This document shows positions 7,831 to 58,965 of a stretch of 64,000 bases of DNA, one piece after another. Source of the stretch: Weeksella virosa DSM 16922 (lineage in GTDB: Bacteria > Bacteroidota > Bacteroidia > Flavobacteriales > Weeksellaceae). Location of the stretch: NCBI RefSeq assembly GCF_000189415.1, contig NC_015144.1, positions 248,001 to 312,000 on the forward strand, given 5' to 3'. How positions within the stretch are numbered: position 1 is the stretch's first letter; each line of letters opens with the position of its first letter. Under the pieces are notes generated by a model. The model was not told the origin of the DNA and ran no database searches. It worked only from the letters and a program-made list of their open reading frames with translations. Made by a program: the position numbers and the translations under genes.

Positions 7831-8268
7831 TTAGTTTTTTAAATATTGTGTAGTGATTTTTACGAATTCTTCAAAGGAATAACAAACAGCTGTTGCGTAG
7901 CGTTCGCTTCGCGCTTTGGCTAAAAAAACATCTTGCTTTTCGGTAGTTGTGTTTTTACCATATTTCATTTCAATGAATAATCCGTGAAATCCTCTCGATG
8001 CCTTCATGATGAATAAATCTGAAACACCAGCTACCACACCTTCAGCTTTGATTTTTGCTACTTCTTTCTGATGCCTTGATCCACCATTCGGAATTGAGAA
8101 TATCATCACATCACGAAATTGTAGCCTAAACCATTTTACGCATTGCTGTTGTAATTTACTTTCGTGATTACTCTGCTTTTTCTTCTTCGGATTTTGGACG
8201 TAAATGTTCGGGTAACTCAATGATAGCGATTCGTTCAGTAGTAACCTTTTCACCTTTCGTTGTGACAT
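7831..8268 (-). CDS. VRR-NUC domain nuclease
   Basis: This is a small PD-(D/E)XK-type nuclease of the VRR-NUC family, often placed beside phage terminase or replication genes and thought to cut branched DNA. The core is visible as IPNGGSRHQKEV (59-70), GVSDLF with D84, and FIEMKYG with E100 and K102. The listed ATG at 8268 overlaps the small terminase gene by 101 bases. The first 35 residues are Lys-rich and do not look like the family, so a non-ATG start nearer 8170-8220 is possible; no later ATG precedes the core. Confidence 0.85.
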   Translation of the reverse strand: MSQRKVKRLLLNESLSLSYPNIYVQNPKKKKQSNHESKLQQQCVKWFRLQFRDVMIFSIPNGGSRHQKEVAKIKAEGVVAGVSDLFIMKASRGFHGLFIEMKYGKNTTTEKQDVFLAKARSERYATAVCYSFEEFVKITTQYLKN

Positions 8269-8623
8269 CTATTTCATCTTTTATTCCTACCGATGCACGG
8301 TATTGATTCATTAAAAAATTAGCTTGGCTCAATCTTGTTCGAGTATCCACATCTTCGTAAAACACTTCTTTTGTTGGATTACCCTTTTCGTCTAATACTG
8401 CTTTAGCAATATATCCTGTCTTAATGGCAAAAGTTGTTAAGCTTTCCAAATCTTCATGCAACTTGGAACGTGCAGCTTCTCTGATTTCTGCCATTTCAGG
8501 GTTTCTCTTCATAAATCTATAAAGAGTCGGATACTCTACATTTAGAATTTTTGAAGCATGCACAGGCATTCCACCAGCTTTTTCAAGTGCATTTTTTACT
8601 TTTGTCTTTGTCAATTTTGCCAT
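8168..8623 (-). CDS. Probable phage terminase small subunit
   Basis: The 151-residue protein begins with a helix-turn-helix-like segment (VKNALEKAGGMPVHASKILN, residues 10-29) and YRFMKRNPEMAEI, a pattern typical of small terminase subunits that bind the packaging site. The rest is charged and helical with an acidic tail. It sits two genes upstream of the large terminase, with only the nuclease gene between, which supports the call. The 3' end overlaps the nuclease reading frame. Confidence 0.75.
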   Translation of the reverse strand: MAKLTKTKVKNALEKAGGMPVHASKILNVEYPTLYRFMKRNPEMAEIREAARSKLHEDLESLTTFAIKTGYIAKAVLDEKGNPTKEVFYEDVDTRTRLSQANFLMNQYRASVGIKDEIDVTTKGEKVTTERIAIIELPEHLRPKSEEEKAE

Positions 8624-8649
8624 ATTACAATCTATTACAGCAGTTTATC

Positions 8650-9147
8650 TTATTTTCTACTTAAAGGGATAACCTTTTTGTTGTCGACTTTTCGCTTTTG
8701 GTTCTGATCAACCAACGCTTCATTTTGATATTTATCCGCTATTTTTTGATACTTTCCTTGGATAGCTTCTTTTATTGGTGTAGCGTATTTATTGTATATT
8801 TTACCGTATTCGTAAAACTCTTCGATTAGTTGGATATATTCACCTGTTGTTATTTCTAATTCTTTAGCTGACATATCCTGAGCAACATTCAGCAAATAAG
8901 AAACTGAAAATAAATTGAAATTATCGTTGCTCAATTGCTTATAAACCTCCAAATCTGCCTTTAATCTATTTAAAGATGAATTTTTAAGTATTTTATTCGC
9001 TACTCTTTTTAATCTAAATTCAAAATCGGTTACTTCATCAATTGGAAAAGGGAATGATGTTAACTGTTCTCGAATTTCTTTTTTTATATTTTCATTCAAT
9101 TCTGCAAAAAATTGCTGTTGTTCTAGTGCGTTCAATTTTTTTTCCAT
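8650..9147 (-). CDS. Hypothetical phage protein
   Basis: This protein has 165 residues, highly charged and probably all-helical, with no signal peptide, membrane segment or motif that I recognise. It ends in a basic Lys/Arg-rich stretch (QKRKVDNKKVIPLSRK). It lies 26 bases upstream of the small terminase gene and 16 bases after the ParB-like gene in the same leftward transcript, so a role in packaging or late regulation is possible, but nothing in the sequence shows it. Confidence 0.8.
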   Translation of the reverse strand: MEKKLNALEQQQFFAELNENIKKEIREQLTSFPFPIDEVTDFEFRLKRVANKILKNSSLNRLKADLEVYKQLSNDNFNLFSVSYLLNVAQDMSAKELEITTGEYIQLIEEFYEYGKIYNKYATPIKEAIQGKYQKIADKYQNEALVDQNQKRKVDNKKVIPLSRK

Positions 9148-9163
9148 TTATATATTTTTAAAA

Positions 9164-9919
9164 CTAATCATAAATTCTCTCTACTTTATTTGAAAACTCT
9201 TCACCCTTTATAATTGTTGAGTACTCTGGGATATCAAATCTTCTACAAAAAGCCTCTTTACTTTTATGATTATCGAATGATAACGTAATGTAGGATATCA
9301 TATCTTTGGTCTTCTCTATAGCCTTTTCTTGAATTTCTTTTTTTACATCTTTTACGGCTTGTTTTTTTTCTTCATCCGACAGTTCACGCTCTATGGTTTT
9401 TTGTTCTGCAATAGGTTGATACAAGTGTTCGATTTCATCATGAATGTTATTGTTGTTTAATTCAGGAACCGTAACCCCGTAATAATTTAAATCAAAATCA
9501 TCAAGCCCAGCATTTTTATAATCAATTTCACTTATTAATTCACGCATCAACTCATCATTCAAAGGCGTTATGCTTTTGTATTGAAAAACGTTTTGCTCTT
9601 TTTCCGTTTTCTGATCTAATTCTATTTTTTCAACTTTGATGTCGTAATCGGTTTCAGGTGTTCCATCGTATTTGTAGTATAAATCGTGGACCATTACACG
9701 TTTATGACCATCTACAAGATTTCCAGTAATGCTATTCCAGATTATTCCACCTAAAAAACCAACTCTTTTGAAGTTACGCTTAATGTCGTTGATATGCTCT
9801 TTTGTATGATGCTTCGGGTTATATGGTGAAAAGTTGATTTGTGATCTCTTAATAACCACAGTAACCGATTGATTGAATTTTGCATCAGGATTATTAATTA
9901 CTCTTTGTGTCATGGTCAA
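9164..9919 (-). CDS. ParB/sulfiredoxin-like domain protein (IbrB-like)
   Basis: In this 251-residue protein the N-terminal part matches the ParB-N/Srx fold: SPYNPKHHTKEHINDIKRNF, GGIIWNSITGNLVDGHKRVM, with the hallmark GHKR at residues 71-74. The C-terminal half is acidic and coiled-coil-like. It overlaps the upstream PAPS-reductase-like gene by 26 bases, so the two are probably translated together. The same pairing is known as IbrA/IbrB in Escherichia coli and occurs in phages. Biochemical function is not established; chromosome partitioning is unlikely without a ParA. Met3 (9913) is an alternative start. Confidence 0.8.
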   Translation of the reverse strand: MTMTQRVINNPDAKFNQSVTVVIKRSQINFSPYNPKHHTKEHINDIKRNFKRVGFLGGIIWNSITGNLVDGHKRVMVHDLYYKYDGTPETDYDIKVEKIELDQKTEKEQNVFQYKSITPLNDELMRELISEIDYKNAGLDDFDLNYYGVTVPELNNNNIHDEIEHLYQPIAEQKTIERELSDEEKKQAVKDVKKEIQEKAIEKTKDMISYITLSFDNHKSKEAFCRRFDIPEYSTIIKGEEFSNKVERIYD

Positions 9920-10797: not shown

Positions 10798-11178
10798 TTA
10801 TGGTCTAGAAATGATTTCGCCTAAGCTATATTCAATAATAGCCGCATTATAATCTTTACCCTTTTCATCTTGTAAAATGATCAATTCACCTGTTTCTTCA
10901 TCTACTAATAAAAATATATCTGCCCTTTCTACTTTCACCACCATTCTCGGGCGTGTACCTTTGTACGCACCTGTAAGAAATGTTATTGTGTCATATTCAA
11001 CGGGCAGAATATTGCCCGTTTCTTCATCTTCGATTACATAACCCTCTTCATCTACCCGACAATACCTGTGCACGTTTTTAGGTCTAATTTCTCTTGTTTC
11101 TATTTTCTTTGTGCCTGCAAGTATCTCATCAAAATAAACTTGCTTAATGCTTAATGTTAAATTTTTTTTCTTACTCAT
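10798..11178 (-). CDS. ASCH-domain protein, copy 1
   Basis: The 126-residue protein opens with LTLSIKQVYFDEILAGTKKI and ETREI, the N-terminal signature of the ASCH (PUA-like) fold, which binds RNA or nucleotides; members include cytidine-acetyl hydrolases and RNA-interacting proteins. A paralogue is at 13189-13545 and the two share long identical nucleotide stretches around the signature, so the duplication or conversion looks recent. It stands between the tRNA gene and the PAPS/ParB pair. The exact substrate cannot be told. Confidence 0.75.
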   Translation of the reverse strand: MSKKKNLTLSIKQVYFDEILAGTKKIETREIRPKNVHRYCRVDEEGYVIEDEETGNILPVEYDTITFLTGAYKGTRPRMVVKVERADIFLLVDEETGELIILQDEKGKDYNAAIIEYSLGEIISRP

Positions 11179-11195
11179 AATGTTGATTTAATTTG

Positions 11196-11269
11196 TAGCG
11201 AGAACAGGACTCGAACCTGTGACCTTTGGCAAGTTAAACCAACGAGCTGACCAACTGCTCTATCTCGCA
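11196..11269 (-). tRNA. Phage-borne tRNA, anticodon reads AAC (Val)
   Basis: The minus strand folds as a 74-nt cloverleaf: a 7-nt acceptor (6 pairs plus a T-T mismatch at 1-72), T8-A9, D-stem GAGC/GCTC with loop AGTTGGTCA, anticodon stem TTGGT/GCCAA, loop TTAACTT, a 5-nt variable region, and T-stem ACAGG/CCTGT with loop TTCGAGT. The anticodon is AAC by position. A pyrimidine at position 37 and the 1-72 mismatch are atypical. The 3' end is genomic ACA, so CCA is not encoded. It lies between the ASCH gene and a terminator. Confidence 0.75.
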
Positions 11270-11380
11270 TTTTAATAAAACAAATATAACTAAAAATAAT
11301 CAATATATTTATATTTACAATACAAAAAAGCACATAATGCCTTTTTTTATTTCTCTGATTCTCAGCTTTTACAAAGAAAA

Positions 11381-11420
11381 CAATAAGACGAGTACATATT
11401 ACTCGTCTTATTGTTTTTTC
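11381..11420. terminator. Strong bidirectional terminator
   Basis: A 13-bp perfect stem (CAATAAGACGAGT / ACTCGTCTTATTG) with a 7-nt loop is flanked by T-rich runs on both strands. It lies directly after the leftward gene at 11425-12021 and before the tRNA. Confidence 0.85.
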
Positions 11421-11424
11421 TTTT

Positions 11425-12021
11425 TTACATTGACAAATATTTTTCTAATGATTTTTTTGATTTGAACGCAACACCACTATAATACTCAGGTAAATTATAC
11501 CTATAATTAGCCTCGAACCACCCGTATTTGCCATGCATTTCAGTCACTAGAACCACCGCATATTTTGGCGCTTCTTGAAGCCTTCTAAAACAAGTACCAT
11601 ATTTTTTTATAAAATTTTCTCTTTCTCTTGTTTTTTGCCTCTCAATTTCTTGCGCTTCTAGTTTTGCACTGTTTTTGATTTCAAATTCAGCCTGCCATTG
11701 TTTCACTTCTTCAGCTGTTGGCATTTTTTGTAAAAAATAAGTTTTCTTCATGCCCCCGCCGTATTGCTTTGGCAGTTTACCAGCGTGATGCCATTCAGGT
11801 TCACCGAATACGCCTCGATAAATCTCTAATAGCTCTTTAGCTGTAATATTAACACCTCCATTTTTCTTTTTCTTTAACTCTTTAACTGCTTCGCCAAATG
11901 TCACTTTTGTCATTCTAGCTATTGCATGCCTGTTGCTTTCAAGCTTACCTGTAATATTAGTCGCTAACCCACCGCCGTTAAAGTTTTTATTGTTTTCTAT
12001 TTCGTCAATAATTGTTTTCAT
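11425..12021 (-). CDS. Hypothetical phage accessory protein
   Basis: This is a 198-residue soluble protein. A Gly-rich N-terminus (NFNGGGLATN) is followed by a helical middle with ITAKELLEIYRGVFGEPEWHH and a charged Arg/Glu-rich stretch, then a C-terminal region with KYGWFEANYRYNLPEYYSG. I do not recognise the family. It has its own copy of the shared promoter/operator module just upstream and a strong terminator just downstream, so it is a separate transcription unit controlled together with the two genes to its right. Confidence 0.8.
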   Translation of the reverse strand: MKTIIDEIENNKNFNGGGLATNITGKLESNRHAIARMTKVTFGEAVKELKKKKNGGVNITAKELLEIYRGVFGEPEWHHAGKLPKQYGGGMKKTYFLQKMPTAEEVKQWQAEFEIKNSAKLEAQEIERQKTRERENFIKKYGTCFRRLQEAPKYAVVLVTEMHGKYGWFEANYRYNLPEYYSGVAFKSKKSLEKYLSM

Positions 12022-12116
12022 AACATTTAATTTTATTTGATTAATTATTTATTTTTCTGTTACAAATGTAATACTATATTTTTACATTTGCAAAATATTT
12101 ATTAATTTTTTTTATT
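12020..12116 (-). promoter_or_regulatory. Promoter/operator module, copy 1
   Basis: This A+T-rich module of about 95 bp is nearly identical to those at 13096 and 13546. The inverted repeat CAAATGTAA / TTACATTTG (12063-12090) overlaps a minus-strand -7 box TACATTTG (12063-12070) of the Bacteroidota TAnnTTTG type, with TTG about 20 bases further upstream. A repressor bound here would block RNA polymerase. Confidence 0.7.
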
Positions 12117-12156
12117 TTTTTTCTAAGTCAGTAAACACCCTAAAGCTCGTTACTGT

Positions 12157-13095
12157 TTATAAAGTAATATTAAAAATTCTTTGTGTTGCAGAAATTGCAT
12201 TTTGAGTTAATTGTCTTTGCCAAACTTTTTGACTTGGCGACCATCTAAACGCATTCTTTTTTAAAGATTGTATAATTTCTACCTTTGGTTTTTCATCATG
12301 TTGTATCTGTAGGCGGTCAATTTCGTAATTAAAAAAAACTTTAAAACCTTCAAAAGTTAATATTTTTAATTCTTTATTTTGTATATTATTGATCTCTTCT
12401 CTGTATTGCTCTGTTACTTCTAGAAGCGTAAAAATTCTGTGCTTTTTTGTAAAAATAGGCTTTACATAGTCAGCACCGTTGTTATGTTTTTTTATAAGGT
12501 TTAAGATGTCTTCGCTTCTTGCTTTGTTGCCTTCTTTTGCTATTGTTTTTAAGCAAAGATTTGTAATACCGTTTATAAACAAATTTCTGTTAAAGCCCGT
12601 TTGCTCTTTTTTATCAATAGCTTTAATTAATAGCATGTTTTCTAATATATTATCTTTTCTCTTTTGGTGTATTTCTTTAGCTTTTTTTTCTGGGTCAATT
12701 ACTGTAGTTTGTTTCTTTTCGTAGCGACTATAAAAAGTTTTTCTAAACTTTATAAATTCTTCATTTCGTTTCATTTCTATCTCTAGTGCTTTAAGGTTTC
12801 TTTCTACTGGAAACCTAGCTGGTCCTGTTATCATTGATGAAGCTGTGCGGCTCTTTGCATCTAACCAAGCTAATAGCTTGTTAATAAAACGATCTTTATA
12901 AATTCGCTTTGTTTCGTCGTCTGTATATTGTTTTAAATCTTCTGTTAATAATTCGCTATATTCTCTAACGATTGATTCAGCACGCTTATCTGGGTCAAAT
13001 GATATATTACGATATGCATTATATGCTCTATTGTAGTAATCTTGTAAAATGTAGTTATCTTCTATTGTTTTTGTTTGTGTTTTTTGATTGCTCAT
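12157..13095 (-). CDS. Hypothetical phage accessory protein
   Basis: This 312-residue, mostly helical and Lys-rich protein has no membrane segment. The C-terminal stretch SLKKNAFRWSPSQKVWQRQL followed by TQNAISATQRIF resembles the end of small domains found in mobile-element antirestriction and methylase-associated proteins, but I cannot assign it firmly. It has its own promoter/operator module (copy 2) and is transcribed separately from its neighbours. Confidence 0.75.
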   Translation of the reverse strand: MSNQKTQTKTIEDNYILQDYYNRAYNAYRNISFDPDKRAESIVREYSELLTEDLKQYTDDETKRIYKDRFINKLLAWLDAKSRTASSMITGPARFPVERNLKALEIEMKRNEEFIKFRKTFYSRYEKKQTTVIDPEKKAKEIHQKRKDNILENMLLIKAIDKKEQTGFNRNLFINGITNLCLKTIAKEGNKARSEDILNLIKKHNNGADYVKPIFTKKHRIFTLLEVTEQYREEINNIQNKELKILTFEGFKVFFNYEIDRLQIQHDEKPKVEIIQSLKKNAFRWSPSQKVWQRQLTQNAISATQRIFNITL

Positions 13096-13188
13096 AACTT
13101 TTAATTTTATTTGATTAATTATATATTTTTCTACTACAAATGTAATACTATATTTTTACATTTGCAAAATATTTATTAATTTTTTTTA
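13096..13188 (-). promoter_or_regulatory. Promoter/operator module, copy 2
   Basis: Near-identical to copy 1. The inverted repeat CAAATGTAA / TTACATTTG is at 13137-13164 and overlaps the -7 box TACATTTG on the minus strand. It drives the gene at 12157-13095. Confidence 0.7.
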
Positions 13189-13545
13189 TTATTTGCTGAT
13201 TATTCCAGCTAAATGAATTTCAGCTACAGTTGGGTAGTAGTCTAACCCATATTCATCTTGTTTCATTTCGTATTTATTCGTTTCTTCGTCAAGTAACATG
13301 AAGACTTTTATTTTATCAACTTTTACAACCATTTGTTCTCTATCTTTAGCCATGAAGGTGACTGTGTCGTATTCTCTGGGTATTATATTACCATCATCGT
13401 ATGTGTATATGTAATCACAATCTGCATCGCAATATGTTAGCATGTTTTCATATGTCACCTCTCTTGTTTCTATTTTCTTTGTGCCTGCAAGTATCTGATC
13501 ATAATATTCTTGCTTAATTGGTAAAAGTAAATTTCTTGTTTGCAT
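13189..13545 (-). CDS. ASCH-domain protein, copy 2
   Basis: This 118-residue paralogue of the protein at 10798-11178 shares the signature LLPIKQEYYDQILAGTKKIE and ETREV, then diverges in the middle with a Tyr/Asp-rich segment. The ASCH fold implies RNA or nucleotide binding. It is driven by operator copy 3 and stands head to head with the HTH gene at 13699, so the HTH protein is the obvious candidate regulator. Confidence 0.75.
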   Translation of the reverse strand: MQTRNLLLPIKQEYYDQILAGTKKIETREVTYENMLTYCDADCDYIYTYDDGNIIPREYDTVTFMAKDREQMVVKVDKIKVFMLLDEETNKYEMKQDEYGLDYYPTVAEIHLAGIISK

Positions 13546-13640
13546 GATTTTATTTTTTTGTTTGATTAATTATTTATTTTCTGTTACAAATGTAATACTA
13601 TATTTTTACATTTTCAAAATATTTATTAATTTTTTTTAAA
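13546..13640 (-). promoter_or_regulatory. Promoter/operator module, copy 3
   Basis: Same module as copies 1 and 2, with the palindrome at 13587-13614; its distal arm ends TTT and not TTTG, so this copy is slightly imperfect. It sits in the divergent region between the ASCH gene (minus) and the HTH gene (plus), whose own -7 box TATATTTG lies just before its start. Confidence 0.65.
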
Positions 13641-13698
13641 ATATATTTTTACATATATATATAAATGCATTATAATATTTTTACATTATATTTGCAAC

Positions 13699-13945: not shown

Positions 13946-14782
13946 TTATCCAAGCGATTGTATAATTGTTCGCTCACTTTCGGATAGATCCCATATTATT
14001 ACATCGTCTTTTTCTGCGGCTGCTTTTTCTGCGGCTGCTTTTTCCGATAATAAAAAACCGCTTCCAAATATTGCTTTTTTATGTTTTTTCTGACTCTCTA
14101 ACGCCCTGCAATGCTTAGCGTCTTTTTTATTTATTTTTATGGAAATTCCACGACTTATTATCCAAGATACATGGAATACCGTAATAACTTCATTAGGATA
14201 ATCATACTTCGGTTTATTTACTTTTTTTCGTGCATTTAATTGATTAAATTTTTCCAACAATTGAGCGTCTCCAATTATTTTAACATCTCCAAACATATTT
14301 GATAAAAAGGAGGTTTTAACAGTTGCTCCATTTTCATAAGTAATAGTCGCATTGACAACTATATGTGTTACATCAACATCGCTACTAAAAAGTGTAAGGT
14401 GAGGAGCAAATAAAAAAAATGGTATATTCCTGTCGATATAAAACTTGCAGATTTTCGTTATGATAGAAAAAGGAGGATTATCAATTACTACAGCATTATC
14501 AGGATACTCTATATCTTCATAATCGCCACCAGGATAGAATGGACGTATTATTTCTTTTTCTTCTAAATTACAATGACTTTTAACGTAATCCAAGACTATT
14601 TGATATACTTCAGGAGGAGTATAACAGTCGTCTGTTGTTTTTTTAGGTTTAAATTTATCTACAAATCCTTCATAGTCGTTGAATAAATCAATTTTTCTTT
14701 TTGTTGATTCATAAAATCTAAATTCCTCTTTTCCAAACAAGTCAACAACTTTATATGTTTTTTTGTTCATTTTGTTTTTCAT
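13946..14782 (-). CDS. Phage-type adenine DNA methyltransferase
   Basis: The 278-residue protein has TTDDCYTPPEVYQIVLDYV (49-67), PFYPGGDYE, and motif IV as DNPPF (101-105) inside VVIDNPPFSIITKICKFY. This is the arrangement of phage N6-adenine methyltransferase-like proteins. A C-terminal Ala/Glu/Lys repeat (residues 244-258) comes from a 15-bp tandem DNA repeat near 14,010-14,045. The SAM-binding motif is weak by eye, so activity is uncertain. It follows a half attC-like sequence. Confidence 0.75.
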   Translation of the reverse strand: MKNKMNKKTYKVVDLFGKEEFRFYESTKRKIDLFNDYEGFVDKFKPKKTTDDCYTPPEVYQIVLDYVKSHCNLEEKEIIRPFYPGGDYEDIEYPDNAVVIDNPPFSIITKICKFYIDRNIPFFLFAPHLTLFSSDVDVTHIVVNATITYENGATVKTSFLSNMFGDVKIIGDAQLLEKFNQLNARKKVNKPKYDYPNEVITVFHVSWIISRGISIKINKKDAKHCRALESQKKHKKAIFGSGFLLSEKAAAEKAAAEKDDVIIWDLSESERTIIQSLG

Positions 14783-14806: not shown

Positions 14807-14829
14807 GTTCGCAAAGCTTTGTGTTAGGC
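14807..14829 (-). repeat. Half attC-like sequence
   Basis: On the minus strand GCCTAAC is followed by ACAAAGCTTTGCGAAC. The first seven bases match the attC end consensus RYYYAAC, but no GTTRRRY partner follows before the next gene. It is best read as a decayed or truncated copy of the two longer hairpins at 15074 and 16288. Confidence 0.4.
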
Positions 14830-14838
14830 GAAATTTGC

Positions 14839-15060
14839 CTACATGTCAAAATCAGTTACTAAATCTTCGTTCACTTCTTCATATTCCCATTCAAAAGTTC
14901 CAAATATAGGCTCTGGTTCTCTTTTGTTTTCTTTTTCAAATGGATTACTACCACTTAAACTTCCATTATCTCTAAAATGGAATCGGATATATTCTTCTAA
15001 CTGTTTTTGACTATGTCTTACGTTTGGTAATTCGACTTCAAATTCTATCTTGATTTTCAT
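14839..15060 (-). CDS. Hypothetical small protein
   Basis: This 73-residue acidic protein (KIKIEFEVELPN..., acidic C-terminus ending ELVTDFDM region) has no motif that I recognise. Its ATG lies 13 bases after the GTTAGGC end of the attC-like hairpin and a half attC follows its stop, so it has the dimensions of an integron-type cassette gene. Function unknown. Confidence 0.6.
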   Translation of the reverse strand: MKIKIEFEVELPNVRHSQKQLEEYIRFHFRDNGSLSGSNPFEKENKREPEPIFGTFEWEYEEVNEDLVTDFDM

Positions 15061-15073
15061 AATAATAAACTTC

Positions 15074-15203
15074 GCCTAACATAGGTTTTACGCAAGTGGG
15101 TGTTAGGCTTTTAAATCCACTTTTGTATATTAATTAAAGTTTGTGTTTGTTTGAATGTTTACGCAAGTAAATCCCACCTGCGTAAAGCCAAGAAACGTTA
15201 TGC
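15074..15203 (-). repeat. attC-like imperfect hairpin
   Basis: On the minus strand it runs from GCATAAC to GTTAGGC over 130 bp. The two ends pair imperfectly: the left arm contains CTTTACGCAGGTGGG and the right arm CCCACTTGCGTAAAA. Size, GTTRRRY/RYYYAAC ends and imperfect pairing match attC recombination sites. It lies between the DNA methyltransferase stop and the start of the next small gene, with R'-like GTTAGGC on the downstream side as in integron cassettes. No integron integrase is in the window. Confidence 0.5.
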
Positions 15204-15208
15204 ACAAC

Positions 15209-16222
15209 CTACTCAAAGATCTTTCCCTGAATAGGCTGTAAATTCTCAATTCTGTTTTTACCATTCTCAAAATATTCCTCGTCTATTTCACAGGATATGC
15301 CTTTCATACCCATATTGTAAACTGCTTCCATTGTGCTGAACGAACCACCAAAGGGGTCTAATACTACTATATCTTCTTTATCTTTATTTTGTGGAATTAC
15401 AAGTGCTAAAAGACGTTCTAATAATCTTACTGGTTTTTGGGTTGGGTGGATTGCTGAATAATGATCTCTAACTTGTTTAATGATGCTTTTTTCGTTTAAT
15501 CCAAAACAAATAGATTGGGTGACATTTACACAGCGATCATAATCTTTTACTTTATCACTTTCTGTAATTAGATGCTTTTGGGTTTTGACAGTTAAATCAG
15601 TTCTAATAATTGATTTTTCATTCAAGCCGTCATTGACGCTTCTCATTACAGATACACAACGATTTTCTTTTGTAATATTTGAACTTATTGATATATTGTT
15701 TGCATCCCAATTATCAGAAGTATCTCTATTATTATTTTCCAAAAACTCTAATACAGCATCTAAAGATTTTGTGTTTTTGAAAGTTGTTTTTAACCGTTTA
15801 ATATCTGTTATAATAGAATCCAAATCATGTGATTTCATTTCTAAGTAAGGCACTTTCACTTTATTAATAGTGCCTTTTCCTTTTGTGAAAATTGAAATAG
15901 TTTCGTGAACTCTTGACAATCGCATTAATGGACTTGTGCAATGTGATTTATTCCAGATGATTTCTTCTTTGAAAGTGAATCCTAAATCTGCTAAAATCGT
16001 GTTCCAACGATAAAAACTTTCACCCCGCCCGAAAAGGACAATGAATCCTTTTTTTGTAAGCAATCTTTTGCATTCTGAAAAGAATTTTTGTTCATCGAAA
16101 ACCCTTTCCAATTTTTGATTTTTTAGATACAAATAAGGTGGATCTGTACAGATAACATCAATACTTTCACTTGGTAATTTTGCCATTAATTCTGCATTGT
16201 CGCAGTTGTATAATTTTATCAT
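15209..16222 (-). CDS. Site-specific N6-adenine DNA methyltransferase (beta-class order)
   Basis: This 337-residue enzyme transfers methyl groups from SAM to adenine in DNA. Motif IV DPPY is at 27-30 and the SAM-binding motif I LDPFGGS at 288-294, with IHPTQKPVRLLERLL before it; this IV-before-I order is that of beta-class methyltransferases. The middle, target-recognition region carries an internal repeat (residues 188-206 and 230-248 share RCV...GLNEKSII). No restriction endonuclease is adjacent, so it looks like an orphan protective or regulatory methylase. It lies between two attC-like hairpins. Confidence 0.9.
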   Translation of the reverse strand: MIKLYNCDNAELMAKLPSESIDVICTDPPYLYLKNQKLERVFDEQKFFSECKRLLTKKGFIVLFGRGESFYRWNTILADLGFTFKEEIIWNKSHCTSPLMRLSRVHETISIFTKGKGTINKVKVPYLEMKSHDLDSIITDIKRLKTTFKNTKSLDAVLEFLENNNRDTSDNWDANNISISSNITKENRCVSVMRSVNDGLNEKSIIRTDLTVKTQKHLITESDKVKDYDRCVNVTQSICFGLNEKSIIKQVRDHYSAIHPTQKPVRLLERLLALVIPQNKDKEDIVVLDPFGGSFSTMEAVYNMGMKGISCEIDEEYFENGKNRIENLQPIQGKIFE

Positions 16223-16287
16223 AATTTTTATTATTTGTTTTATTGGCTTACGCCATTTTTGCCATCGCTTTTGAAAAAATTACTGTA

Positions 16288-16384
16288 GATAACAAGTGGT
16301 TTTGCAAGATTGGGGTGTAAAGTGCCTCTATTCATATTTTCGTCTCCGAAAATCCCCAACCTCGCAAAGCCCTCGCCCGTTATG
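16288..16384 (-). repeat. attC-like imperfect hairpin
   Basis: On the minus strand it starts at CATAAC, inside the stop codon of the upstream gene, and ends at GTTATC. The outer arms pair imperfectly (GGCTTTGCGAGGTTGGGG with CCCCAATCTTGCAAAACC). An inner perfect hairpin ATTTTCG/CGAAAAT is at 16336-16353. Ends deviate from the attC consensus at one or two positions, but layout and spacing match the neighbour at 15074. Confidence 0.45.
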
Positions 16385-16634
16385 TGATATTTTCCTGAAT
16401 GAGCTTAATAGCTGAAACTGTAACCGAGCTGTTTTTATTTTTCTCTAAAAGATAATTAAGCACTCTTTCAATTCCTGGAGTAGATCTTACAAGAGTAGTG
16501 AACTCTTGTAAGAGGCAAATGCTAACAGGTCTATTTCTAACATAATCTCTAAATAAATATATACCTTGTGAAAACTCAAATTGATTTTCTTTTGTGAATT
16601 TGTCGTGAAATTCTCTATAAATTCTGTTATTCAT
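16380..16634 (-). CDS. Hypothetical small protein
   Basis: This 84-residue soluble protein (NRIYREFHDKFTKENQFEF, then VRNRPVSICLLQEFTTLVRS) is probably helical. Not recognised. Its stop codon forms part of the attC-like end. It has a minus-strand -7 box TATATTTG and is head to head with the HTH gene at 16775, repeating the layout seen at 13.5-13.9 kb. Confidence 0.6.
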   Translation of the reverse strand: MNNRIYREFHDKFTKENQFEFSQGIYLFRDYVRNRPVSICLLQEFTTLVRSTPGIERVLNYLLEKNKNSSVTVSAIKLIQENIT

Positions 16635-57815: not shown

Positions 57816-57933
57816 TTAATTTAGTCTTTCACTGATTATTTCTATTGTTGTTGGCTAGGTTTTTTTTAGTATTGGTTACAACGTTTCAAGGCTTTGTGAT
57901 AGTCTGGTTTGATGCAATATAAGTAAAAAAAAC

Positions 57934-57963
57934 AAAAAACCATTGGAACATCCAATGGCTTTC
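57934..57963 (-). terminator. Terminator of the apbE operon
   Basis: On the minus strand GCCATTGGA / TCCAATGGT with a short loop is followed by TTTTTTG, directly after the apbE stop at 57967. Confidence 0.85.
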
Positions 57964-57966
57964 TAT

Positions 57967-58965
57967 TTATATCTTGATTATTTTACCAGAATCTGTAATA
58001 AAAACACCTTTGTATTGTGTGAATTTTTTTAATAATTTCTTTCCTTTCTTTTTCCCCATTACCATAATTGAAGTACTCAGTGCATTTGCAAATTCAGCAG
58101 ATGGACCATAAACCGTTACGCTTGTTAATCCTGTTGAAGGCATGCCTGTTTTAGGATTAATGATATGTCCATATCGAGTATCATTGATTTCGACAAATTT
58201 TTCATACGAACCTGAGGTTGCAATAGATGAATTGTTTATGCGTAAAACCTTCGCAATACCATGTCTTTTAAATGGGTTTTTAATGCCAATTTTCCATTCT
58301 TTTTCATCAATTGGTTTTCCCCAAATAGCCATATCGCCAGAAGCGTTTACAATTCCTGCTTCTATTCCTTTTGCTTGTAAAACCTCTTTGGCTTTGTCCG
58401 CAGCATAACTTTTTCCTATAGAGCCAAATCCTATTTTCATACCAATGTCTTTAAGAAAAATGGTAGTATCTTGAGGGTTTAATAGAATCTTTTGATAATC
58501 TACATTTCTTACCGATTGTTTTATTTCTATAGGTGATGGCAAACTATCCATAAATCCTGAAAAATCCCAAATACGATCCATAGCTGCAATGCTAATGTCA
58601 AAAGCACCATTGGAAAGTTTTGAATATTGAAGGGCACGTTGAGTTAATTTAAATACTTCAAAATCAACTTTTACAGGACGAATTCCTGCTTGTTGATTAA
58701 CTTGAGAAATTTGTGTTTCAGGTATCCATTCAGAAATAAGAAATTCGATACGTTTCATTTCTTCAAAAGCTTCATCAATTGCAATATTTGTATGAATAGA
58801 ATCTTCAGAAACTACAGATATATGAAATGTTGAACCCATGATTAATGCTGACTTTTCAATCAATTTTTTATCTTGACTATATGAAAAATTAGCTAAAAAT
58901 ATAAAAAGCAGTCCAATTATTATTGAGCCGCTTTTAGATGTGATATGTGATTTTTTTAGTAGCAA
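57967..58965 (-). CDS. apbE: FAD:protein FMN transferase ApbE
   Basis: This 332-residue enzyme has an export signal (GSIIIGLLFIFLANFSYS). It moves FMN from FAD onto a Ser/Thr of periplasmic proteins. Family features are ALIMGSTFHISVVSED, GAFDISIAAMDRIWDFSGF, DIGMKIGFGSIGKSYAADKA and INASGDMAIWGKPIDEKEWK-like. RYGHIINPKTGMPSTGLTSV and EFANALSTSIMVMGKKKG are further markers. The start overlaps the PepSY gene by 10 bases. Its target is probably the DUF2271 protein two genes upstream. Confidence 0.94.
   Translation of the reverse strand: MLLKKSHITSKSGSIIIGLLFIFLANFSYSQDKKLIEKSALIMGSTFHISVVSEDSIHTNIAIDEAFEEMKRIEFLISEWIPETQISQVNQQAGIRPVKVDFEVFKLTQRALQYSKLSNGAFDISIAAMDRIWDFSGFMDSLPSPIEIKQSVRNVDYQKILLNPQDTTIFLKDIGMKIGFGSIGKSYAADKAKEVLQAKGIEAGIVNASGDMAIWGKPIDEKEWKIGIKNPFKRHGIAKVLRINNSSIATSGSYEKFVEINDTRYGHIINPKTGMPSTGLTSVTVYGPSAEFANALSTSIMVMGKKKGKKLLKKFTQYKGVFITDSGKIIKI

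Follow-up and report, generated by a model that had tools for sequence, protein, structure and literature searches.

A probable two-cassette array with a DNA methyltransferase gene in a Weeksella virosa prophage, bounded by attC-type sites of a Flavobacteriales family

The prophage studied here in Weeksella virosa DSM 16922 very probably contains a two-cassette array, made up of a methylase gene and a 73-aa ORF, which is bounded by Flavobacteriales attC sites, is served by a recombinase in trans and holds exchangeable genes. Like that of the Polaribacter phage P12002L, the array is a cluster of attC sites with no integrase of its own, and its sites belong to a large, apparently undescribed Flavobacteriales family of integron recombination sites. 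It lies in the window, the stretch of 64 kb that was analysed (G000:C1:248001-312000 in a closed genome of 2,272,954 bases). Along the minus strand the order is 84-aa ORF, site 2, methylase, site 1, 73-aa ORF, half site and 278-aa ORF, with the following window coordinates:

16380-16634, minus strand: 84-aa ORF, its stop codon overlapping the R'' box of site 2
16287-16385, minus strand: attC-type site 2, 99 nt, ACATAAC ... GTTATCT, with a shorter loop
16223-16286, minus strand: methylase leader, TTTTTTC(C)AAAAGCGATGGCAAAA, also present at the site-flanked methylase of the Mu-like prophage L186
15209-16222, minus strand: methylase cassette gene, DNA methyltransferase of 337 aa, PF01555 N6_N4_Mtase, phrog_67
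15074-15203, minus strand: attC-type site 1, 130 nt, GCATAAC ... GTTAGGC on the gene strand
15203-15197 and 15080-15074, minus strand: R boxes of site 1, GCATAAC and GTTAGGC, respectively
14839-15060, minus strand: 73-aa ORF, cassette gene between site 1 and the half site
14808-14829, minus strand: half site, GCCTAACACAAAGCTTTGCG on the minus strand, R'' box GCCTAAC and half a stem
13946-14782, minus strand: 278-aa phage ORF (ORF278), after the half site, phrog_21498

An initial annotation of this DNA had described two imperfect hairpins and a half copy between consecutive leftward genes, and its coordinates were right within a few bases. The cassette geometry that it described is also borne out: the ATG of the 73-aa ORF (15060) lies exactly 13 bases past the GTTAGGC of site 1, 5 nt separate the methylase stop (15209) from site 1, and the stop of the 84-aa ORF falls in the R'' box of site 2. 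The surrounding genes encode a terminase large subunit, a tape measure protein, a CI-like repressor and a RecE-like exonuclease, and the array region is entered in IMG/VR as a 42-kb virus. Thus, two full attC-type sites and a half site stand among phage genes with no integrase in cis, which is the composition of a phage CALIN (a cluster of attC sites lacking integrase), and the methylase is indeed cargo in a prophage with no related recombinase, so that the prophage does not hold a complete integron. The attI motif was not found in 12-20 kb of the window. At the half site the partner half is absent, and the attC scorer described below found no full site there. The 73-aa ORF has no Pfam or PHROG match. 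The 278-aa ORF is possibly methyltransferase-like, as its DNA matches Bacteroides phages and one of the matches is annotated as a methyltransferase. Within site 1 there is an extra copy of TTTACGCAAGT (window 15083-15100 and 15157-15190), together with an internal GCCTAAC/GTTAGGC pair at 15074-15108; this suggests that site 1 is composite or duplicated.

Chance is excluded for the two window sites. An attC scorer that combines R-box consensus, R pairing and inner stem was applied to both strands of the 64 kb, and site 1 (51.3) and site 2 (48.1) ranked first and second; among 60 dinucleotide shuffles none equalled site 1, and 0.03 per shuffle equalled site 2. Class-1 and phage attCs reach about 37-55 with the same scorer, and proven phage attCs have 12-13 of 14 R-box consensus positions. 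Against RYYYAAC/GTTRRRY, site 1 has 13/14 consensus positions and site 2 has 11/14, each with 6/7 pairs; the R' box of site 2 (GTTATCT) departs from the consensus. The stem of site 1 has 17 bp, including a C.A mismatch and a G.T wobble. In attC sites, extrahelical bases set the choice of strand. Both window sites show mismatches rather than clear single-base bulges; a bulge is present in some relatives. Folding of the gene strand as DNA, which the initial annotation had proposed as a check, gave a firm result for site 2 (z = -4.4) and a modest one for site 1 (z = -1.5, only mildly beyond shuffles).

The other proposed check, an attC covariance model, came out differently with two models. R1, a home-made model of 11 class-1 and phage attCs, recovers both its own members and three aadA/aadB sites kept out of it, at 35-38 bits; it matches only an inner part of site 1 (15-18 bits) and gives site 2 9.6 bits, so a class-1-type attC model of this kind does not recognise either site. 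With R1, the refuting condition of the initial annotation, a low attC model score for both hairpins, would have told against its proposal. These scores are weak because the window sites belong to a different, Flavobacteriales family, for which a class-1-type model proved unsuitable. R2, a covariance model built on an 18-site alignment of that family, scores site 1 at 112.4 bits (E 8e-26) and site 2 at 66.3 bits (E 7e-14), partly by construction, as both are seed members.

The family has the layout TAAC, 7 nt, GGCTTT... stem ...AAAACC, 3 nt, GTTA. In the alignment of 18 sequences, 89% of cells are paired, 14 pairs are changed on both sides and 51 cells are compensatory, a number matched by 0/500 shuffles, and slid controls collapse; the C.A mismatch is conserved in most of the sites and the G.T wobble in 18/18. 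When the genome was searched with site 1 by BLAST, no clear copy turned up, because the family is kept by structure and not by sequence. A strict DNA pattern of the right arm gave 3 matches in 196 related genomes, not above a reversed control pattern, and an Rfam scan had tRNA as its sole match. Two degenerate patterns derived from the stems picked out 13 and 19 viral contigs, and almost every one of these has a full site of ~130 nt. With R2, sites were found in 88/120 Weeksellaceae genomes and in 58/158 Flavobacteriales genomes (32/66 genera). In some arrays (L162, L165, L175 and others), the 130-nt sites take turns with sites of another size class, about 190-200 nt long.

On chromosomes, the sites form dense arrays of one orientation. 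In 149 intervals, adjacent sites are a median of 685 nt apart and each interval holds one ORF of about 200 aa, which starts 34 nt after one site and stops 10 nt short of the following one. In 123/134 cases the ORF is oriented against the R2 strand, as it is in 55/57 cases in further arrays from four families. Sites above 40 bits keep one orientation per array, the sole exception being an opposite-strand pair of matches at L138/L174. Many arrays adjoin a tyrosine recombinase of 355-380 aa, which is encoded on the R2 strand and thus divergently from the cassettes. Homologs of this recombinase occur in 51/120 Weeksellaceae genomes, and 51/51 of these have sites, versus 37/69 of the genomes that lack it (Fisher p = 4e-10); at 17/21 recombinase loci checked, a same-strand site lies within 5 kb upstream. 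It is conceivable that the sites are a MITE- or REP-like inverted repeat spread through the Flavobacteriales by means other than a cassette recombinase, and indeed the family has a high copy number, a conserved stem and an often conserved loop. However, a repeat of this kind would explain neither the single orientation per array with one short gene per interval, nor the tight recombinase linkage and the conserved attI described next, and we consider it very unlikely.

In genomes with the same recombinase, the DNA from this gene as far as ...TATATTTGAGTGTT, which lies about 190 nt upstream of it, has an identity of about 98-100%, and different cassettes begin exactly after the GTT of this attI (L168, L169 and L216 versus L170; also L175, L217 and L218). 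L168 and L169 have 2.57 kb in common and diverge at an attC R box, ...CAAACGTTA. The identity up to GTT followed by different cassettes therefore marks the system as a real integron with an attI. The attI motif was found upstream of 9/14 recombinases checked, and its background is 0.016 per kb. Comparison between genomes thus establishes, at the level of sequence, the site family, its structure, the cassette geometry with GTT boundaries, the attI and the linked recombinase. Single-gene cassettes and G|TT junctions are seen for the family in other genomes; the window itself displays the geometry alone.

These junctions also bear on the idea that the hairpins are ordinary structures of a phage operon (terminators, mRNA stabilisers or a regulatory element) with no relation to integrons. 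The hairpins do stand at gene ends and can fold, and attC sites can serve as weak terminators (PMC9892861). Yet the gene strand of the array has no T-tract terminator or other terminator-like site, methylase homologs in other phages mostly have no hairpins, and the sites of the family bound hundreds of unrelated genes beside a recombinase, with junctions exactly at GTT. This explanation is largely refuted because of the single-gene arrays and GTT junctions elsewhere, and we regard it as most unlikely. Hairpins conserved as terminators in a fixed gene order, the outcome named by the initial annotation as fatal to its proposal, did not appear: the homologs mostly lack hairpins and have no common neighbours.

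Outside the window, at a distance of about 110 kb from the prophage, the host chromosome contains an integron whose sites are of the same family. It has these features:

G000:C1:137001-157000: host integron locus L089
G000:C1:153391-154455 (L089 16391-17458), plus strand: host tyrosine recombinase, 355 aa, no IntI insertion
157 nt upstream of the L089 recombinase: host attI, TTCGTATATTTGAGTGTTAGC
attI region of the L089 recombinase: TTCGTATATTTGAGTGTT
L089:15189-15321: site nearest the recombinase
G000:C1 152189, 150116, 149192, 146285, 145406 and 141410: host integron sites, leading away from the recombinase; in L089 numbering, sites at 15189, 13116, 12188, 9285 and 8405
G000:C1:313694-319198: further chromosomal sites

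Its cassettes include a 911-aa DNA methylase/restriction-type protein as well as RidA-like and CMD proteins. The site cluster lacks an integrase within the prophage, but its sites do not stand alone in the genome, as a complete integron is on the same chromosome. The IntI-specific insertion domain is held to be necessary for IntI binding of attC. This insertion in the catalytic domain is absent from the recombinase of this genome and from 19 relatives (20/20 aligned), and the motif SPLDxL is the end of the recombinase as in IntI, or near the end, in the 20 aligned. With TIGR02249 the host recombinase scores 195.6 bits, below the cut-off of 265, and the whole genome has zero integron integrases above the curated cut-off. 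Of the marks of an IntI, the host recombinase has the attI beside it and a divergent cassette array, and lacks the insertion.

We propose the following for the prophage array. Two cassettes would be bounded by attC sites, the last of which is cut to half. The single R2 strand would fold into a hairpin, a step that we infer, and a tyrosine recombinase would act in trans; it may be that of the host integron at G000:C1:153391-154455, or an array-linked recombinase of other phages. The recombinase would join sites at the G|TT of GTTRRRY, so that a gene between two sites is inserted or excised, and the phage would acquire accessory genes that can be exchanged, in this case an orphan methylase with a probable anti-restriction role. 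Recombination of window sites 1 and 2 and their present activity are predictions of this model, as is the protection of phage DNA from restriction by the methylase, which is probable. Several points count against an integron reading: half of one site is missing, the R' box of site 2 is off the consensus, there is no recombinase in the prophage, R1 is blind to the sites, most homologous methylases are unflanked and site 1 folds modestly. The first three of these would fit sites that are of attC type but inert relics, in an array that captured phage genes long ago and is now fixed, with no recombinase acting on it. Set against inertness are the complete integron of the same site family in the host, the full stem and consensus GTTAGGC of site 1, and a methylase of the same family that is flanked by sites in other phages; relics are a possible but rather unlikely explanation, and we retain the array served in trans.

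The phage arrays differ from the chromosomal ones in gene polarity. In viral contigs the ORFs lie on the R2 strand in 30/32 intervals, and in the window prophage in 2/2; R2-strand to opposite, the counts are 30:2 for viral contigs vs 13:178 for chromosomes. The gene polarity of the prophage array is no anomaly, since the viral contigs run the same way and this is the phage norm. Being opposite to the chromosomal polarity, it also counts against the integron reading, as phage arrays may work differently. A related recombinase stands at the array end in three viral contigs (L070 3554-4276, L078 3-572 and L063 2043-2585), which may be integrons carried by phages, their genes having the reversed polarity.

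The same methylase family is found as a cassette in other phages. In the Mu-like prophage L186, from another genus, a phrog_67 methylase (8326-9201) is flanked by sites at 8190-8269 and 9229-9358; it has the same 22-23-nt leader as the window methylase, and MuB-like and DUF3164 genes are nearby. In the viral contig L059, a phrog_67 methylase (11102-11794) lies between sites at 11870-11738 and 10850-10718 and is followed by a Dam-like methylase. About 25 other loci with homologous methylases mostly have no sites and have no common neighbours; other relatives of the window methylase, with identities of up to 76%, stand among unrelated phage genes without sites. Considering the homologs without sites together with the site-flanked copies, the methylase is a roaming phage gene that has travelled as a cassette several times. 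A search for a sister prophage with an empty site found none; the distant prophages L195-L198 have no sites, and close relatives of ORF278 and of ORF17701 of the prophage are absent from the viral contigs.

Several known systems resemble this one. Polaribacter phage P12002L has a CALIN with methylases as cargo, and its P12002L_attC2 is active with IntI1 (PMC9892861). Like the window prophage, it is a Bacteroidota phage with attC sites between leftward genes, methylase cargo, no integrase and the site layout R''-6 nt-stem-3 nt-R'. Its site, however, has 55 nt and is unmatched by R2, whereas the window sites have 99-130 nt and a 17-bp stem, and the host of the window prophage has an integron of the same site family. 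The initial annotation regarded attC sites around a methylase in a prophage as unusual; the observation is confirmed, and phage attC clusters with methylase cargo are already known from this precedent (PMC9892861). What is new is the family of sites, the type of recombinase and the finding that genes in phages have the reversed polarity.

Among class-1 attCs R2 is silent, with the sole exception of the site behind blaVEB-9 on plasmid pKAZ2 (L053 10283-10415; 39.4 bits, with E 2e-8 for its locus), a hint that this cassette arose in Bacteroidota. The veb1 attC, of 133 bp, recombines with IntI1, though about 50-fold less efficiently than the attC of aadB (PMC3518468). It matches R2 and is similar to the window sites in length, long stem and R boxes, and differs in belonging to class 1 integrons of Proteobacteria; its gene is opposite to the R2 strand, as in the chromosomal Flavobacteriales arrays. 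In Riemerella anatipestifer, according to a 2026 paper, aph(3')-IVb with a 140-bp attC-like 3' hairpin integrates without flanking homology, with no recombinase named (PMC13148043). This unit is likewise from the Weeksellaceae and, by description, a gene with an attC-like 3' hairpin; it differs in being a resistance gene acquired by transformation. The chromosomal arrays are like Vibrio-type superintegrons in attI, divergent recombinase, dense one-way single-gene arrays, similar attC and breaks at GTT, but their recombinase has no IntI-specific insertion and scores below the IntI cut-off, and their site family is not recognised by a class-1 attC model.

Integrons are regarded as rare in Bacteroidota, and IntegronFinder 2.0 gave one complete Bacteroidota integron, in Salinibacter (PMC9024848). 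In the open-access literature, a Flavobacteriales or Weeksellaceae integron with this site family, its attI and its recombinase association is undescribed. We lean, by a little, towards a wider reading in which the Flavobacteriales and their phages run a large overlooked integron system, the phage version is reversed and trades methylases, and the veb1-type cassettes came from it. The system would have been overlooked because its attC sites and an integrase without the IntI domain both escape standard models. The site family, with attI, recombinase and arrays of dozens of cassettes, is present in over a third of the sampled Flavobacteriales genomes, and, as the recombinase lacks the IntI domain, the system allows one to test directly which features an integron integrase requires. 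The system may also explain how Riemerella gains resistance genes without homology (PMC13148043), may be where the poorly recombining veb1 attC came from, and may give phages a way to swap anti-restriction methylases.

Three further observations concern the window. A tRNA-Val gene (anticodon aac) lies within the prophage region at 11195-11269. Near-identical promoter-like regions of 103 nt, 78-95% identical (12018-12120, 13092-13194 and 13542-13644), lie upstream of several small phage genes, one of which is ASCH-like (13545-13189). The plus strand at 57876-58015 weakly matches the site family (21.9 bits) and may be what is left of a chromosomal site.
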